Shown here piece by piece: positions 44,309 to 51,718 of a stretch of 59,469 nucleotides of DNA. How positions within the stretch are numbered: the first letter of the stretch is position 1; each line of letters begins with the position of its first letter. The stretch lies in NCBI GenBank assembly GCA_027484915.1, contig JAIXSA010000068.1:1-59469 (forward strand). Direction: 5' to 3'. The DNA comes from Paracoccaceae bacterium. Its GTDB lineage: Bacteria > Pseudomonadota > Alphaproteobacteria > Rhodobacterales > Rhodobacteraceae. A program made the position numbers and the translations under genes. The notes beneath the pieces were generated by a model, which saw nothing but the letters and a program-made list of their open reading frames with translations, was not told where the DNA came from and did not search any database.

Positions 44309-44818
44309 TCAGTTGCGCGAAGGGTAGATCCCCTCCAGCGCGATAATGTAATTTACGCAAAGGCTTGGCTGCATGTTGTCATGCGGCTGGCCGCCTCCGG
44401 TCAAAGCAATGGACAGGGGATTCAGCGTCAGCGTCGGCCCACTGGTGTCAGAATAAATTTGTGATCGCGCGAGCATGTCGCCCTGCCCGCGATCAGAAGC
44501 ACTCGTTACATCGGCGACAACCAGGTCATGCCTGTGTGGTGGCACCTGGCCCGGCGCAAGGTTGACGGTCTCGGTCCCGAACGCCTCGCCCGGAGAGCGC
44601 GGCGAAAGCCCAGCCCCGGACCCGGCATGGACGGGGACACGTCCACGCAGGTCCGGCAGCCGGAAGGTGTTGATCCCGTCCCCTCCGTACGTCGTGCCAA
44701 GCAGCGAAAAGAGCGCCGAGTACTGGGCGATCTCCAGCGACTGGCCGTTGCAGAACGCCCAACCGCGCGGCTCGAAGTTGCCTCCGAACAATATGATCGA
44801 CCCAAGGAGGGGTTCCAT
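44309..44818 (-). CDS. phage tail-collar domain protein (MdpB-like)
   Basis: A 169-residue protein with a tail-collar domain at the N-terminus: LLGSIILFGGNFEPRGWAFC, then TYGGDGINTFRLPDLRGRVP, the standard signature of phage short tail fibre collars and of bacterial 'microcystin-dependent' proteins. The middle has PHRHDLVV and the end SLCVNYIIALEGIYPS. Free-standing chromosomal members have no agreed function; some occur in clusters of related surface proteins. No other phage gene is near. It diverges from the FAD/decarboxylase-like gene and shares its promoter region. The ATG has GGAAG upstream. Confidence 0.85.
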   Translation of the reverse strand: MEPLLGSIILFGGNFEPRGWAFCNGQSLEIAQYSALFSLLGTTYGGDGINTFRLPDLRGRVPVHAGSGAGLSPRSPGEAFGTETVNLAPGQVPPHRHDLVVADVTSASDRGQGDMLARSQIYSDTSGPTLTLNPLSIALTGGGQPHDNMQPSLCVNYIIALEGIYPSRN

Positions 44819-44897
44819 CGCTTCCGCACCGATTCACCACGACCATCCGGAGAGATGGCCGTTGCTGCAGTCCTAGCCGGGGCGGGCTGGGTTCATC

Positions 44898-44970
44898 TGT
44901 GGCAAAACGCACACTGTGGGAGGGGTCCAGCCCCCTTCGTTTTCGGGATGGATTGGTGCGTGGCTGCACA
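44898..44970. promoter_or_regulatory. two Crp-like palindromes in the divergent promoter region
   Basis: Site 1: TGTGG-CAAAAC-GCACA (44898-44913). Site 2: GGTGC-GTGGCT-GCACA (44955-44970). Both have the N6 spacing of Crp sites (TGTGA-N6-TCACA); site 1 matches 8 of 10 consensus bases and site 2 matches 7. Their centres are 57 nt apart. They lie 80 nt or more upstream of the collar start and 65-180 nt upstream of the FAD gene. The Crp-type regulator at 51041 is the natural candidate binder. The region is also less GC-rich than its surroundings. Confidence 0.4.
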
Positions 44971-45034
44971 TTTTCGGCCCTTTGGAGGAAGTTTGAACCC
45001 TTCGCAGATGCTTTTCTTCCACAAGTTGCAAAAT

Positions 45035-48000
45035 ATGGTTAACGAATTCGGAATAGGTATTGAGATAGGGGATAGTGGGTTGGTTGCACAACGTCAGAAG
45101 ATCGCGGTGATCGGCAGCGGCGTGGGGGCGATGACCGCGACCTATGCGATCACCATGATCCCCGGTTGGGAAAAGCTTTACGACATCACCGTCTACCAGA
45201 TGGGCTGGCGATGCGGCGGCAAGGGGGCCTCGGGTCGCAACCTGGCGCAACATGGCCGGATCGAGGAGCACGGTCTGCACATCTGGGCCGGGTTCTACGA
45301 GAACGCCTTCCGCCTGATGCGCGACTGCTACCAGCAGATGAACGACTGCGGCATCCGCTCGCCCGATGATCCGCTGGGCACCATCGACAAGGCGTTCAAT
45401 GGCCTGTCGCATTTCTTCATCGCCGAGGACCTTCCCGGTCCCGACGGCGCACCTGTCATGCACCCCTGGCGGATCGATTTCCAGCCCAATGACAATGTGC
45501 CCGGCGTCCCGAATGCCGACGGCACCGACGAGATGCTGCCCACGCCCTTTGCCTATTTCCAGATGTTGGCGGGCACGATGGCGCGGATGTTCGATCAAGG
45601 CATGGTCGGGGCGGTGGACGCCCCCCAGGTCCTGCCCGACCGGTTTCACCCCGGCCTGCGCCGACTGGGGCTGCCGGTCGCGGCACCGACCCCGTTCCAC
45701 CAGCTTCACGCCCTGGCCTCGCGGCTGCCCGACAACCCGCACCTCCACCGGACGCACGAGACGCTGCAGCTTTCCGCGCTGGCCGCCCATGCGCAGGAAT
45801 GGCACCAAACCCGGATGCGGACGCTGGATGATGGCGATGAGGCCCGGCGGCTGGGGATCATGGTCAGCCTCGCCACGGCCTTTTTCCGGGGCGCGATCGA
45901 TACCGGCCTCTTCCGCGCCGGGTTCGACGCCATTGACGACCAGGAGATCAGTGCCTGGCTGCTGCAGTTCGGCGCCAGTGAGGAGGCAGTCTATTCGGCA
46001 CTGTTCCGGGGCTGCTACGACTATGTCTTCGGCTATCCGGGCGGCGTGACCAACGACCGGGGCGTGGGCGCGGGGACGGCGATCCGGGGGCTTCTGCGGC
46101 TGGCCTTCACCTACAAGGGCAATCTTTTCTACAAGATGCAGGCTGGGATGGGCGACGCGATCTTTGCCCCCTACTACCTGGTGCTGAAATCCCGTGGCGT
46201 GAAATTCCGCTTCTTCAACGCCGCGACCGCGCTGCGGCTGGACCACCAGAAGCTGGGCATCACGTCGATCGAGATGGTCGAACAGGCGCGCGTCCTTGGG
46301 GCCGGGGACTATGATCCGCTGGTTCCGGTGGAGGACCTCCTGTCCTGGCCCTCGGCGCCATTGTGGGACCAGCTTGATCCCGCGTCCTACGCCGCCGGCA
46401 CCGATTTTGAATCCGAAAAGAACCCGCCGCAGGGCCGTGCCTACACCCTGCATCGGGGCCAGGACTTCGACCAGGTGATCCTTGGGGCCTCGCTGGGGTC
46501 GATCCCTTATCTGGCGCAGGACCTGATCGCCGCCGAGCCGCGCTGGAAGGCGATGGTGGCGAATGTCCATACCGTGGCGACCCAGGCCGCGCAGTTCTGG
46601 CTGAACCGGACCGCGACCGACCTTGGCTGGGACGCGCTGGTCGCCGCGCACAACCCCGGTCCGCAGACCGACCTGCAGACCGTGATCACCAGCTTCACCG
46701 AGCCGCTGGATACCTGGGCCGACATGTCCGACCTTTTGCCGCGCGAGGCCTGGCCCAAGGACGATCCGCCGGTGCAATTGGCCTATTTCTGCAGCCCCGC
46801 GCAGGACGCAGGCGTGGAGCCCGGGCCCTTCACCGACCGGGTCCGCGACTGGGCCGACCGCGACCTTACCCGGATGTGGCCGGGTGCCGCGAAAAACGGC
46901 CGCTTTGACCTTTCGCTTCTGTGGGGGCCAGGCCAGACCCCGGAACAGCGGTTCCAATCGCAGTATTTCCGGCAGAACTTCTACGGGTCCGAACGCTATG
47001 TCCTCTCGGTCCCCGGCTCGGTCCAGTACCGGCTGCCGCCCGACGACAGCGGGTTCGAGAACCTGTACATCGCCGGCGACTGGACGCGCTGCGGGATCAA
47101 CGCGGGCTGCGTCGAGGCTGCGACGATCTCGGGCCTTGTCGCCGCGCGCGGGTTGACCGGGCATCCGTTCCAGGTGGTTGGCGAGGGTGATCTTGCCCCC
47201 GACGGCACCCCCGCCGATGCGATCGAGCTGCAAAGCCCCTATGCCCAGACCGCCGACTGGCCACTGACCCCATTCTTCGGGACCGGGACGATGGACGGCT
47301 TCTTCAGCTTTCATGCCGTCGATGCGGATGCTGTGCAGGCGATCCTGCCGCCCGGCATGTCGCTGCACCCGCAGAGCTTTACGCCGCCCGGCACCCACCC
47401 CGTCACGCTGCTGGCGAACCAGCAGATCGGTGTCCGCCCCTCGGCCCTCCCGCGCTTGCTGGGCTTCCCGCCCTATTTCGAGGCCATCGTCTCGGTCGCC
47501 TGCGTGCAGGTGGACGGCCAGCCGGGGATCTTCAACTACCTGCCGAACCTCTACCTGTCCAACCAGTCCGCGCAGCTCGCCGGGCTGCTGTTCTACGGCT
47601 ACAACAAACGGATGGGGAAGCTGACGATGGGCAATGGGTCCTACTCGGTCGCCACCCCGGATGGCCGTCCGGTGTGGTCCGGCCGCTACCAGTCGCGCGG
47701 GTTCGCCCACAGCCTGATGGACAGCCCCGACTGCGGCGTCGTCCAGACGATCTGCGGCCAGACCATCGTATCGCAGGGCAAGCTGTCGCGCTGGCACTTC
47801 TCGGCCTTCGACTTCGACTTCACTTCTGCCTCCGTCACACCCGTCGCCGCCGAGATCCAGATCCACGACCCCACATTGGCCCAGCTTCCCGCCGGCCGGC
47901 TGACCGCACAACCCCTGGCCATGCCGCAGGATGGCCGCCGCCATCGCAAGGGACTGCCGGGCGCCTTCCGCATCCGGACCGCCTGGACGTTGTCGAATCC

Positions 48001-48055
48001 GTTGGACTCGCGGCGAATTGCCCATTTAGAAGCAGCCCGGACTAGGCTACCGTGA
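45035..48055 (+). CDS. FAD/NAD(P)-binding oxidoreductase fused to acetoacetate-decarboxylase-like domain
   Basis: A roughly 1006-residue two-part protein. The N-terminal part begins with a dinucleotide-binding IAVIGSGVGAMTATYAI and ends with NLYIAGDWTRCGINAGCVEA, as in amine oxidase / phytoene-desaturase-like flavoenzymes. The last 280 residues resemble the acetoacetate decarboxylase superfamily; LFYGYNKRMGKL (Lys about 858) aligns with the GYPKK motif holding the Schiff-base Lys, with the second Lys replaced by Arg. Start is uncertain: ATG 45035 has no good ribosome site, while TTG 45080 has AGGGGA at 7 nt and begins 7 residues before the Rossmann motif. The stop is 25 nt before the cyclase gene. 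Substrate unknown. Confidence 0.75.
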   Translation: MVNEFGIGIEIGDSGLVAQRQKIAVIGSGVGAMTATYAITMIPGWEKLYDITVYQMGWRCGGKGASGRNLAQHGRIEEHGLHIWAGFYENAFRLMRDCYQQMNDCGIRSPDDPLGTIDKAFNGLSHFFIAEDLPGPDGAPVMHPWRIDFQPNDNVPGVPNADGTDEMLPTPFAYFQMLAGTMARMFDQGMVGAVDAPQVLPDRFHPGLRRLGLPVAAPTPFHQLHALASRLPDNPHLHRTHETLQLSALAAHAQEWHQTRMRTLDDGDEARRLGIMVSLATAFFRGAIDTGLFRAGFDAIDDQEISAWLLQFGASEEAVYSALFRGCYDYVFGYPGGVTNDRGVGAGTAIRGLLRLAFTYKGNLFYKMQAGMGDAIFAPYYLVLKSRGVKFRFFNAATALRLDHQKLGITSIEMVEQARVLGAGDYDPLVPVEDLLSWPSAPLWDQLDPASYAAGTDFESEKNPPQGRAYTLHRGQDFDQVILGASLGSIPYLAQDLIAAEPRWKAMVANVHTVATQAAQFWLNRTATDLGWDALVAAHNPGPQTDLQTVITSFTEPLDTWADMSDLLPREAWPKDDPPVQLAYFCSPAQDAGVEPGPFTDRVRDWADRDLTRMWPGAAKNGRFDLSLLWGPGQTPEQRFQSQYFRQNFYGSERYVLSVPGSVQYRLPPDDSGFENLYIAGDWTRCGINAGCVEAATISGLVAARGLTGHPFQVVGEGDLAPDGTPADAIELQSPYAQTADWPLTPFFGTGTMDGFFSFHAVDADAVQAILPPGMSLHPQSFTPPGTHPVTLLANQQIGVRPSALPRLLGFPPYFEAIVSVACVQVDGQPGIFNYLPNLYLSNQSAQLAGLLFYGYNKRMGKLTMGNGSYSVATPDGRPVWSGRYQSRGFAHSLMDSPDCGVVQTICGQTIVSQGKLSRWHFSAFDFDFTSASVTPVAAEIQIHDPTLAQLPAGRLTAQPLAMPQDGRRHRKGLPGAFRIRTAWTLSNPLDSRRIAHLEAARTRLP

Positions 48056-48080
48056 CGGCATCCTGGGGGGGAAATCACTG

Positions 48081-51044
48081 ATGGTGAAGGGAGAAATCGA
48101 AACCGGCAGCGTGCGCAGGCAAGTGACGGCCGTCTTCATCGATCTTGAAAACTTCAGCACCATTGCCAGCCAGGCCGATGCCGAGGACCTGCAATCCTGG
48201 CTTGACGACTACTACCGGCAAGCCCGCCTGCTGATCGAGGCGGCAGGGGGCGAGATCACCGAATATCTCGGTGACGGGGTCGTCGCGATCTTCGGCCTTG
48301 ACCGGACCGAGGAACTTTCCGCCGACCGCGCTGTCGATGCCGCATTGCGTGCCGTGCAGTCGATCAAGCTCAGCTATCTCAACCGCATCACCGTCCGGCT
48401 GCGTGCGGGCGTGGCGACGGGTGAGGTCGTGGTCCGCCTGGCCGCCGCCGCCGACGGCCTGCCCCGGTTCACTGGCGGCGTCACCACCCTGGCCGAGCGC
48501 ATCCAGTCCGAGGCGACCCCCGGCAGCGTCGTCATTGCCGAAGAGACCCGCGCCCTCTGCCGGGGCCGGTTCGAGACCCGCGCCCTTGGTCCCCGCCGCC
48601 TGAAGGGCTTTGCCGAGGAAGTCCCGCTTTTCGAAGTCACCGCCCGCCTGCCCGCCGGCGGGATCGACCAGCCCGAGACCTTCGTCGGCCGCGCGCGCGA
48701 GATGGCCAAGCTGATCGCCGCCGAGGGGCCGGTGCTGATCATCGGGCAGGCCGGGGTGGGCAAGACCGCCTTCGTCGGCCATGTCGCCAGCCAGTTCACT
48801 GCGAAATCGGTGTTTCAGGGCGACGCGATCGGCTATGGCTCGTCCTTCCTGCCGTTCCGCGACTGGCTCTTGGACCGGATCGGCAACCCGAACCCCGACT
48901 ATGCCACCCTGGCCGAGGCCTTCCCGACGCTGGTCACCCAGGACCGCCAGGCGCTTGCGCTGATCCTGGGCCTTCCCGAGGGGCAGGTCCTGATTGCCAC
49001 CTTGTCCAGCCTGGCCCTGAAGGGCCTGATCGAGGGCGCGATCTGGCGCGCGATCCTGGCGCGTCAGCAGCGCGGGCTGCTTCTATTCGAAGACCTGCAC
49101 TGGTTCGACGTCGCCAGCCTTGGCGTCATCAACCACATCTTCACCGCGCCCGAAGCCCGGCAGTTCACCCTGATCCTCACCAGCCGCGAGGATGCCAAGC
49201 TCGGCCGCCATCTTGCCGCCGATGGCGTTCTGACCCTGCCCCTCGATCCATTGCCCGAGGAAGACGCCCGCGTGCTTCTCGACCGGCTGGCCCCTGACGA
49301 ATTGCCGCCCGAGACCCGGGCCCAGGTCCTGCAGCGCGCGGGCGGGGTGCCCCTGTTCCTGCATCAACTGGCGCGGCGCGGGGCGCGGGCGGATGCGGCA
49401 CTTCCGGCCACGTTGATGGACCTTTTGGGCGAACGGATCGACGGGACTGGAGAGGCGAAGCCTGTCCTGCAGCGCGCCGCCGCCCTTGGCCGCAGCTTCC
49501 GGGTCGAGATGCTGCGCGCGCTGGACGGCGAGGACCCGCTGCCGCACCTGCGTGCCGCCGCCCGGGCCGGGGTCGTCGTCGCGCGCCCGAACAACGCGTG
49601 GGAATTCGCCCACGCCCTGCTGGCCCAGGCCGCCTACCAGTCGATGCTGCGCCGCACGCGCGAGGGGCTGCACGCCCGCATCGCCGACATGCTGCAGGCG
49701 CAGTTTCCGCAGGTCCTTGCGCGCGAGCCGGGCCTTTTGGCCGACCACCAACACAAGGCGCGCCAGATCCTGCCTGCCATCGTAAGCTACCTGCAGGCCA
49801 GCCAGAAGCTTTTGATGCAGGGTGCCTTCGGCGACGCCGAAAGCATGGCCCGCACCGCCCGGTCGCTGTGTAGCGAACTGCCCGAGGAAAGCCAGCCCGA
49901 ACTGCAGATCGCCGCGCATACCATGATCGGCTCGGTCCTGATGCAGGTGCAGGGCTTCACAGCCGAACCCGTCCGGCAGGAGTTCGACACCGTGCTCGAC
50001 ATCTCCAGCGCTCAGGCCGCGCTGGGGCCGAACACCGCCCCCGCGCTTCTTGGCGCGCACACCCACGCCATCATCTCGGCGCAGGAGGCGCGGGCCAACC
50101 GTCTGGGCGCGCTGATGGACCGTATGGCCGAAGCCGCGGGCGACGACCCCGAGGGCACCGAGATCAGGCTTGTCGCGCTTGCCGCGCGCAACGGGACCCG
50201 CTTCTACCAGGGCCGCTTCGCCGAACAGCTGGACTGCATCGCGCAGATCCGCCCGCTGTACCGGCTGGAGAAGCACGCCGGGATGATCGCCCGCTATGGC
50301 ATGGACATGTTCGCCGCCGCGCAGATGTTCGAAGGCCCGACCCGCGCGATCCTGGGGCAAACGGACCGCATTCCGGCGCTGGTGGCGGAAACCGACGCCC
50401 ATCAGGCCGCGCTGTCGATCCCGGTGATGCAGCCCTATGCGCTGGTCTGGGGCTCGGTGCCGCTGTTCTATGCAGGTCATCTGGATGACGCACTTGCCCG
50501 GCTTGACCGCGGGATCGAGGCTGCCGTGGCGCAGGGCGCGCTCTTCTGGCAGTTCATCGGCAAGACCTGGGCCTGCGTGATGAACCCCGATCTGGCGCGA
50601 ACGCCCGAAGGTATCGCGGGCTTTGGCCAATTGATCGACACCTTGCGGGCCATCGGGGCCAATGTCGGCGTCCCCTATTTCTCGGCTGTCCATTCGACCC
50701 GTCTTCTGGCGGCTGGCCGCGCCGAGGAGGCGCATGCCCTTTCTTCCCGCGCGCTGGTAGAGACCCAGGCCGAAGCGCTGCATTGCTGGCAGGCCGAGAT
50801 CCTGCGCCTGCATGCGGCCAACTGCCAGGCCACCGGACGTGCGACCGAAGCGCGGGCCGCCCTGGACCAGGCGGTCAAGGTGGCCACCGGGCAGGGCGCA
50901 GCACTTTGGCTGGTGCGGGCGCTCCTTGACCGCATCGACCTGGGCGGACCGGCGACGGGCCTGGCCGAGACCGTGGCCCGCTTCCCTAACGGGGCTGCCC
51001 TGCCCGAACTGGCCCGGGCGCGCACCCACCTGGCCGTGTCGTGA
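48081..51044 (+). CDS. class III nucleotide cyclase fused to AAA/STAND-type ATPase and helical repeats
   Basis: A 987-residue cytoplasmic signalling protein. Residues 12-190 form a class III cyclase homology domain: metal-binding Asp21 (FIDLENF) and Asp65 (YLGDGVVAIF) are kept. The base-selecting Lys is replaced by Glu61, the second specificity position is Arg129, and the transition-state Asn is Thr136 while Arg140 is kept. Residues 200-460 are a P-loop ATPase with Walker A GQAGVGKT (222-229) and Walker B LLLFEDLHWFD. The rest is helical, TPR-like. The layout resembles COG3899-type regulators in which ATP-driven conformational change controls output. The stop overlaps the next gene's GTG start. 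Confidence 0.88.
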   Translation: MVKGEIETGSVRRQVTAVFIDLENFSTIASQADAEDLQSWLDDYYRQARLLIEAAGGEITEYLGDGVVAIFGLDRTEELSADRAVDAALRAVQSIKLSYLNRITVRLRAGVATGEVVVRLAAAADGLPRFTGGVTTLAERIQSEATPGSVVIAEETRALCRGRFETRALGPRRLKGFAEEVPLFEVTARLPAGGIDQPETFVGRAREMAKLIAAEGPVLIIGQAGVGKTAFVGHVASQFTAKSVFQGDAIGYGSSFLPFRDWLLDRIGNPNPDYATLAEAFPTLVTQDRQALALILGLPEGQVLIATLSSLALKGLIEGAIWRAILARQQRGLLLFEDLHWFDVASLGVINHIFTAPEARQFTLILTSREDAKLGRHLAADGVLTLPLDPLPEEDARVLLDRLAPDELPPETRAQVLQRAGGVPLFLHQLARRGARADAALPATLMDLLGERIDGTGEAKPVLQRAAALGRSFRVEMLRALDGEDPLPHLRAAARAGVVVARPNNAWEFAHALLAQAAYQSMLRRTREGLHARIADMLQAQFPQVLAREPGLLADHQHKARQILPAIVSYLQASQKLLMQGAFGDAESMARTARSLCSELPEESQPELQIAAHTMIGSVLMQVQGFTAEPVRQEFDTVLDISSAQAALGPNTAPALLGAHTHAIISAQEARANRLGALMDRMAEAAGDDPEGTEIRLVALAARNGTRFYQGRFAEQLDCIAQIRPLYRLEKHAGMIARYGMDMFAAAQMFEGPTRAILGQTDRIPALVAETDAHQAALSIPVMQPYALVWGSVPLFYAGHLDDALARLDRGIEAAVAQGALFWQFIGKTWACVMNPDLARTPEGIAGFGQLIDTLRAIGANVGVPYFSAVHSTRLLAAGRAEEAHALSSRALVETQAEALHCWQAEILRLHAANCQATGRATEARAALDQAVKVATGQGAALWLVRALLDRIDLGGPATGLAETVARFPNGAALPELARARTHLAVS

Positions 51045-51718
51045 CACTCGACGCGCTGCTGGCGCACGGCCTGCCGCTTTTCCAGGGCCTGACCCCTGCG
51101 GATTTCGCCGGGATCGAGGTGCCGTTCACCGAACGCCGCCTTGGCCCCTGGGAAATCCTGTTTCACCAGAAGGACCGCAGCCGCGATGTGCACTTCCTGC
51201 TCTCTGGCACGCTGATCGCGCTGTACTGGACCGCCGACGGGCGCGAGGTGATCTTCACCCGCTTCGGCCTTGGCGACCATTTCGGCGAACTTGCCGCGTT
51301 GGACGACGGCGACCGCTCGCTGGCCGTGGTGGCCCGCAGCGAGGCGGCGGTGCTGACCATGCCCGGAGCGGTCTTCCGCCAGCTTTTCGACCATGTGCCC
51401 GCCTTGCGCTGGCGGATCACCCACGGCCTGGTCTCGCGTATCCGCGGGCTGACCGCCCGGAACCTGGAGCTGACCACCTACAGCGTCGAACAGCGCGTGG
51501 CCTCATACCTTTTCGGGCTTGCCGTGGATCGGGGCCAGCTGCGGGCCGGGGGGGTGATCACCGAGGCCCCGACCCACGCCGAGATCGCCGCCACGATCGG
51601 CTCGAACCGCGAGATGGTCAGCCGGATCATGAGCGCCCTGGCCAAGCGCGGTGCGATTCGCACGGCCCGGCAGAGGATCGAGCTTCTGGACCCCAAGATC
51701 CTGGCCGCCGAGTTCTAA
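51041..51718 (+). CDS. Crp/Fnr family transcriptional regulator
   Basis: A 225-residue regulator with an N-terminal cyclic-nucleotide-binding domain and a C-terminal winged helix (HAEIAATIGSNREMVSRIM). The phosphate-binding cassette GDHFGELAALDDGDRSLAVV keeps the Glu and Arg-Ser that hold cyclic nucleotide ribose and phosphate in Crp. The Thr-Ser pair that reads the adenine in E. coli Crp's C-helix has no obvious counterpart (sequence SRIRGLTARNLE), so the ligand may not be cAMP. There is no Fnr-type cysteine cluster. It starts with GTG overlapping the cyclase stop by 4 nt, so the two are made together. Confidence 0.9.
   Translation: MTLDALLAHGLPLFQGLTPADFAGIEVPFTERRLGPWEILFHQKDRSRDVHFLLSGTLIALYWTADGREVIFTRFGLGDHFGELAALDDGDRSLAVVARSEAAVLTMPGAVFRQLFDHVPALRWRITHGLVSRIRGLTARNLELTTYSVEQRVASYLFGLAVDRGQLRAGGVITEAPTHAEIAATIGSNREMVSRIMSALAKRGAIRTARQRIELLDPKILAAEF

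Follow-up and report, generated by a model that had tools for sequence, protein, structure and literature searches.

A recurring alphaproteobacterial gene cassette and its candidate cyclic nucleotide-Crp circuit

The window, by which we mean the whole 59,469-nucleotide stretch of DNA analysed (contig C96 of a 3.84-Mb genome that is 95% complete and lies in 173 contigs), carries a real and recurring cassette, in which genes for an FAD oxidoreductase fused to an acetoacetate-decarboxylase-like domain (FAD-ADC), a cyclase-ATPase and a Crp-family regulator are accompanied by a divergent phage-tail-collar gene. Based on comparisons with relatives, this is probably a small specialised-metabolism and surface cassette driven by its own dedicated second-messenger circuit, in which a cyclic nucleotide (cNMP) would act through the Crp protein. 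The best-studied bacterial cNMP circuits work through regulators with many targets; here the cyclase, the receptor, a fixed site and the targets appear as one portable module that is comparatively testable, with natural receiver swaps and losses.

The identities that a preliminary description had given to the four genes, including the collar gene upstream on the opposite strand, agree with their Pfam matches (Table 1), and the tight spacing it reported was reproduced on remeasurement: 25 nt separate FAD-ADC from the cyclase gene, and the GTG start of the Crp gene overlaps the cyclase stop in a 4-nt GTGA. The three plus-strand genes are likely to be one operon with the collar gene divergent from it, although no sigma-70-like promoter was found, which we count against the circuit. 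The closest contigs to the window in the named-genome search were Tabrizicola and other Rhodobacteraceae records, and in the deposited annotation of a copy on a plasmid of Qingshengfaniella alkalisoli the genes have generic names (NAD(P)-binding protein, adenylate/guanylate cyclase domain-containing protein and Crp/Fnr family regulator). That the cassette is plasmid-borne in general was considered and rejected, as FAD matches occurred on 11 plasmid records and only one of them covered at least 80% of the query. A phage origin of the region was also rejected: 482 phage records match the collar protein, all at less than 60% identity, PHROG gave no match for FAD-ADC or Crp, and the two for the cyclase are to families of unknown function.

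Table 1. Features of the cassette and its divergent intergenic region (positions of the window)
Feature	Coordinates	Strand	Matches and remarks
Collar gene, tail-collar protein of 169 aa, divergent	44309..44818	-	Pfam Collar PF07484, E 7.6e-30; PHROG tail families
Palindrome 1, TGTGGCAAAACGCACA, Crp-type, divergent intergenic region	44898..44913		Conserved across relatives
Palindrome 2, GTGCGTGGCTGCAC	44956..44969		Not conserved; count as by chance
FAD-ADC fusion	45080..48055	+	Pfam NAD_binding_8, 2.6e-8; Amino_oxidase, 2.5e-5; ADC, 3.3e-8; start inferred
Cyclase-AAA_16 protein, 987 aa	48081..51044	+	Pfam Guanylate_cyc, 1.6e-16; AAA_16, 2.9e-10
Crp-family regulator, 225 aa, GTG start	51041..51718	+	Pfam cNMP_binding, 2.5e-16; HTH_Crp_2, 1.5e-15

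The proposal that these genes belong together was borne out by a scan of named genome contigs for FAD-ADC homology, which gave 47 loci, 27 of them on alphaproteobacterial contigs (L027-L053) that include Tabrizicola, Paracoccus, Yoonia, Roseovarius, Rhodophyticola, Phyllobacterium and others; L027-L033 come from the same genomes as some of the G-labelled relatives below. The cyclase gene adjoins FAD-ADC in 26 of these 27 contigs (L049 has an ATPase fragment only), all 24 that could be judged have a Crp gene (L032, L044 and L049 could not; that of L052 is 30% identical and lies upstream on the opposite strand), and the collar gene is present in 25 of 27, its match being limited to about the first 60 residues in L039, L040 and L053. 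Of 101 relatives, 11 have a Crp orthologue at 70% identity or more (G018 adds a further match, at 38%), and these same 11 have a collar orthologue at 66% identity or more across 100 residues or more; a collar match of any kind is present in 21. In 8 of the 11, FAD-ADC and the cyclase both have orthologues (69% identity or more); G019, G023 and G038 have a cyclase and a divergent FAD-ADC gene (41-45% identity), and the FAD-ADC matches of G074 and G086 are short and distant only. Little weight was given to the 20 loci outside the alphaproteobacterial set (L054-L073, of which L072 is labelled Rhizobiales), where a custom ATPase profile matches 10 of 20 and a cyclase profile 2 of 20, and where L056 has a kinase-AAA_16 protein by Pfam; ATPase/cyclase proteins of such a type are common in some of these groups.

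In an evenly drawn sample of 295 genomes of the family, FAD matches are rare (14 genomes), Crp matches occur in 11 and both in 4, and the seven of 11 genomes with a Crp match and no FAD match count against the circuit. Twelve of the 14 have the FAD-ADC fusion (the window, L025, L099, L100, L101, L103, L104, L105, L107, L108, L109 and L110), and a cyclase gene adjoins it in 11 of these, L107 having another FAD gene between the two. A cNMP-binding gene lies within the stretch for seven of the 12 fusions (the window, L025, L101, L103, L104, L108 and L110) and was not found within the stretches of L099, L100, L105, L107 and L109, which again counts against the circuit, as does the lone FAD gene without a cyclase in L102; in L106, FAD genes without ADC stand beside an AAA_16 protein whose cyclase domain was matched by the custom profile only and not by Pfam. 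Spearman correlations of pairwise gene distances were 0.84 for FAD and cyclase, 0.66 for collar and Crp, and 0.54 for collar and FAD, the weaker tracking of the collar being a further point against the circuit. Based on the family-sample counts, FAD-ADC and the cyclase are tightly linked, and Crp and its targets make up a second, looser unit. Correlated distances are also what co-descent would give if these were unrelated neighbours, together by chance and sharing their order through common ancestry, but we give that reading hardly any weight: rare as FAD genes are, the cyclase stays beside the fusion while the outer genes change, and a site upstream of the collar gene is fixed within otherwise diverged intergenic DNA.

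The preliminary description had gone further and seen in the cassette a self-contained, closed loop running from signal to cyclic nucleotide, receptor and targets. The linkage and the fixed collar site speak for such a loop, but it is not strictly closed, since some genomes have kept Crp and the collar gene without FAD-ADC and the cyclase. In G006, G021 and G031 the site and an intact Crp remain, and what is left of FAD-ADC (in G006 and G031, of the cyclase too) lies as fragments between collar and Crp; the collar gene itself is broken across frames in G006, truncated in G021 and almost complete in G031. The 20-kb stretches of G232 and G364 contain Crp together with targets that bear the site, and neither FAD-ADC nor a cyclase (the contig of G232 does carry a cyclase, about 11 kb ahead of its collar gene), and the five fusions without a cNMP-binding gene in their stretch tell against closure as well.

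Of the two Crp-like palindromes that had been pointed out upstream, only the first has stood up to comparison. The second was rejected as a site, as two such strings occur in the window against 2.2 expected and it is not conserved in eight aligned upstream regions. No exact TGTG-N8-CACA other than palindrome 1 occurs in the window, and with 0.48 exact occurrences expected there it would be weak evidence alone; in the alignment of the eight upstream regions, it forms a conserved island in diverged intergenic DNA. With no more than one mismatch, the motif lies upstream of the collar start in all 27 loci compared (19 exact), and the same site type in L089, L090 and L111 brings this to 30 of 30 collar loci, 62-101 bp upstream and in 26 distinct sequences with a consensus close to TCTGTGTC-N4-CGCACAGA, although, the loci being related, these are not 30 independent events. 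At the same tolerance, 526 of 14424 windows of 200 bp drawn at random from these loci have the motif (3.6%). Twelve control collar genes, taken from six genomes that lack the cassette Crp, all lack the site in their upstream region (0/12); some of these controls lie in tandem and may have a more distant upstream promoter.

Where the collar gene lies about 6 kb from FAD-ADC (L034, L035 and L051), it is the collar gene that retains the site, and L104 has two exact sites between the conserved parts of the collar and PKD-protein genes. All eight Yoonia-type loci have a further exact site upstream of a prenyltransferase-like ORF that precedes FAD-ADC, at distances of 39-96 bp that depend on our own ORF calls for the gene starts, and L113, which has Crp and no FAD-ADC in its stretch, has an exact site at its prenyltransferase-like gene. 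There is, then, strong comparative evidence that the Crp protein would bind the TGTG-N8-CACA site; its dedicated control of the collar gene is likely, and that of FAD-ADC probable. A large regulon within the window genome was sought and rejected, a 20-bp pattern with up to two mismatches giving 41 matches against 36 for a control pattern, with no clear excess. An exact TTCTGTGTCCAAGGGCACAGAA is also present at position 467 of L110, at an ORF with a weak cNMP-binding match.

The regulator itself has a cNMP-binding domain and an HTH_Crp domain, both above the Pfam cut-off, and is among eight cNMP_binding matches in the window genome. Its phosphate-site Glu and Arg-Ser, singled out in the preliminary description, are kept throughout: the equivalents of E72, R82 and S83, which we take to be phosphate/ribose contacts of CRP, occur in 29 of 29 aligned rows (E. 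coli CRP numbering; one genome is counted twice, as L020 and L033). The residues that are presumably the adenine contacts of CRP are replaced, T127 by Leu in 27 of 29 rows and S128 by Thr in all 29. The recognition helix has the residues of E. coli CRP (R180 in 29/29, E181 and R185 each in 27/29), an RE...R pattern, and a TGTG-N8-CACA site lies at the predicted target genes.

In the 987-residue protein, a class III nucleotide cyclase domain is followed by an AAA_16 ATPase, which we assume to be of the STAND type, and then by a long C-terminal part. Asp 21 and Asp 65, taken by us as the metal-binding pair, and Arg 140, presumably the transition-state Arg, are present in all 30 rows with a cyclase domain, and the Walker A lysine in all 29 rows with the ATPase part. 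Position 136, which we take to be that of the transition-state Asn of class III cyclases, is Thr in the window, and Thr (26), Asn (3) or Val (1) across the 30 rows. The base-selecting pair of class III cyclases is Lys/Asp in adenylyl and Glu/Cys in guanylyl cyclases; that of the window, E61/R129 (Glu in 27/30, Arg in 26/30), fits neither, and based on this pair and Thr136 we predict neither cAMP nor cGMP as the product.

Such departures would also fit a degenerate cyclase domain, in which case Crp would still control the collar gene, its ligand would come from elsewhere than the cassette cyclase, and the STAND protein would serve FAD-ADC in another way, e.g., as a scaffold or sensor. This is unlikely in our estimation, although it deserves some weight, given that Crp, site and collar have outlasted the cyclase in G006, G021 and G031, and that G364 has Crp and a site-bearing target with no PF00211 match in its genome. 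The cassette cyclase is the one PF00211 cyclase in the window genome, and a PF00211 match elsewhere is present in five of seven genomes with Crp but without the cassette cyclase, against none of six hand-picked genus-mates without the cassette, a contrast that would speak against this reading and is weak, because the genus-mates G007 and G022 (26-29% identity) and also G018 have cyclase-ATPase homologues. Also against the degenerate domain are the two Asp and the Arg kept in every row, and the company that the cyclase keeps, for three loci have another protein with a cNMP domain beside it. In G038 (L025), the ORF overlapping the cyclase encodes a SulP-type transporter with STAS and cNMP-binding domains; in L108, the neighbour is an ABC-type protein with a cNMP-binding domain; and in L057 of Pollutibacter soli, the cyclase belongs to a kinase-ATPase-GAF-cyclase protein, and a cNMP-HATPase protein (27.8 bits, just above the cut-off) comes next. 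Crp included, four dissimilar types of cNMP receiver are found next to the cyclase, and this is the strongest indirect evidence that a cyclic nucleotide is made. In L115 (9564-13286) and L098 (6628-10503), a Crp-like gene lies beside a STAND-type cyclase gene on the opposite strand, with no FAD-ADC in the stretch.

Variable cNMP-binding partners, a STAND-type ATPase and a collar protein with a phage-tail fold could also suggest a Pycsar-like anti-phage or conflict system, in which the cyclase would sense infection and its nucleotide would activate an effector. The cyclase has a weak PycC match (37 bits, E 4.6e-10) and the cNMP domain of Crp a weak match to PycTIR/effector proteins (E 1.8e-10), and a passage of one paper mentions conflict-system ATPase genes that are in some cases linked to CRP-like cNMP regulators (PMC7159879). 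We nevertheless hold this to be very improbable, as the matches span the generic cyclase and cNMP folds only, FAD-ADC and the collar have no PADLOC match, the cassette receiver is a DNA-binding, HTH-bearing regulator with a fixed target site in place of a TIR or membrane effector, and the other partner is a two-part metabolic enzyme.

That enzyme was rightly described beforehand as an unusual redox/decarboxylase-like fusion, NAD_binding_8, Amino_oxidase and ADC all matching one protein. In the 1006-aa reading from 45035, the FAD oxidoreductase spans residues ~18-711 and the acetoacetate-decarboxylase-like domain ~745-997; the ATG starts of aligned relatives indicate that translation probably begins at TTG 45080. 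Pfam, the structure model (pLDDT 86.6), and Foldseek and VIA matches all give the FAD part a phytoene-desaturase/amine-oxidase fold, with the phytoene desaturase of PDB 5mog and protoporphyrinogen and amino-acid oxidases as its likenesses at 16% identity, from which the window protein differs in its fusion to the ADC-like domain. The ADC part has the acetoacetate-decarboxylase superfamily fold and the Schiff-base lysine, with Lys858 and Glu816 in 21 of 21 sequences, and its superfamily relatives are ADC 3bgt, MppR 4jm3 and the Sbi aldolase-dehydratase 4zbt. The sequence match to 3bgt is weak (E 0.5), a PDB sequence search with the single FAD-ADC protein gave nothing at E up to 0.1, and the residue after the Schiff-base lysine is Lys in 3bgt but Arg in 16 of 21 sequences here.

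A hint of specialised metabolism comes from the site-bearing gene just before FAD-ADC in the Yoonia-type loci, which in L041 (8858-9883) has no Pfam match and a Crp-type site upstream, and which has equivalents in L043-L048, L050 and L113 (in the last, before Crp). It was modelled as an ABBA-type aromatic prenyltransferase, all 50 of the listed PDB matches of the model being prenyltransferases. One may ask whether a small diffusible molecule is the product of FAD-ADC (in Yoonia-type loci, jointly with the putative ABBA-type prenyltransferase) and the STAND ATPase-cyclase its receptor, cNMP then signalling via interchangeable receivers (Crp, SulP, ABC or histidine kinase). The near-fixed pairing of FAD-ADC and cyclase, their joint loss and the changing receivers fit such a synthase-receptor pair, which would be a chemical-signalling system built on cNMP; we offer it tentatively and think it doubtful.

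The dedicated circuit that we favour would run as follows. The STAND ATPase-cyclase protein would sense a signal, and its class III domain, judging from the kept metal and catalytic residues and from the neighbouring cNMP-binding proteins, would make a cyclic nucleotide. Crp, with its phosphate-site residues, would bind that nucleotide and then its TGTG-N8-CACA site, from where, as the position of the site in the window suggests, it would control both the collar gene and the opposite operon of FAD-ADC, cyclase and Crp; through control of Crp's own operon, the circuit would also feed itself. FAD-ADC, going by its fold and invariant residues, may oxidise and then decarboxylate or condense a small organic substrate via the Schiff-base lysine, and other genera have this site in front of a PKD-repeat protein gene or the ABBA-type prenyltransferase-like gene as well. 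The cassette makes a bounded system for asking what signal the STAND ATPase-cyclase receives, what its unusual active site produces and what FAD-ADC makes, and also why cells keep a lone phage-tail-collar protein under such control.

Self-regulating cyclase-Crp loci are already known; their combination with FAD-ADC and a collar gene was not found described among the papers listed in the literature searched. The best known is that of CgrA in R. centenum (PMC4681086), in which, according to the sections of that account drawn on here, an alphaproteobacterial Crp-type receptor is encoded with guanylyl cyclase subunit genes (called non-catalytic there) and binds TGTGA-N6-TCACA in front of the operon that encodes it, a target gene being divergently oriented. 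CgrA differs in controlling a large cyst regulon, whereas the pattern scan of the window genome gave no clear surplus of sites, and those sections mention no FAD-ADC or collar gene. A looser parallel is Clr of Sinorhizobium meliloti, where the adenylate cyclases CyaD1/CyaD2/CyaK feed a Crp-like regulator with a palindromic site, as here (PMC10127613, PMC4222275); in the relevant passages Clr belongs to cluster G, its recognition helix is said to differ, its site core is GTNNC-N4-GNNAC (PMC10127613), and no single operon with an enzyme is described. The NCBIfam model TIGR03903, a TOMM system kinase/cyclase fusion, matches residues 7-945 of the window cyclase (E 1.7e-74), but at 251.5 bits against a cut-off of 705.75, and Pfam finds no kinase domain in the window protein. 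The preliminary description had known of no system with this composition, and in the literature searched, mostly open-access, FAD-ADC together with a STAND-type cyclase and site-bearing collar, PKD or prenyltransferase-like genes was likewise absent among the matches listed.

Several loci have additional genes around the collar gene or FAD-ADC. A PKD-repeat protein gene adjoins the collar gene in L034 (3471-9935), L035, L051 (with one further ORF between), L104, L111 and L031 (4523-9757), and L034, L035, L051 and L111 have, between the collar gene and FAD-ADC or Crp, a tandem pair of genes of unknown family. Beside the collar gene are also a DUF4915 protein gene in Roseovarius albus (L036, 7916-9016) and an Orn/Lys/Arg decarboxylase family gene in Paracoccus (L039, 6312-9083), the latter of the same cluster as genes in L040, L042 and L053. 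In Nannocystis (L063, 16859-18877), a gene for an aromatic amino-acid lyase (PF00221, E 9e-182) lies about 4 kb downstream of FAD-ADC, and its gene cluster is also present in five other Nannocystis loci.
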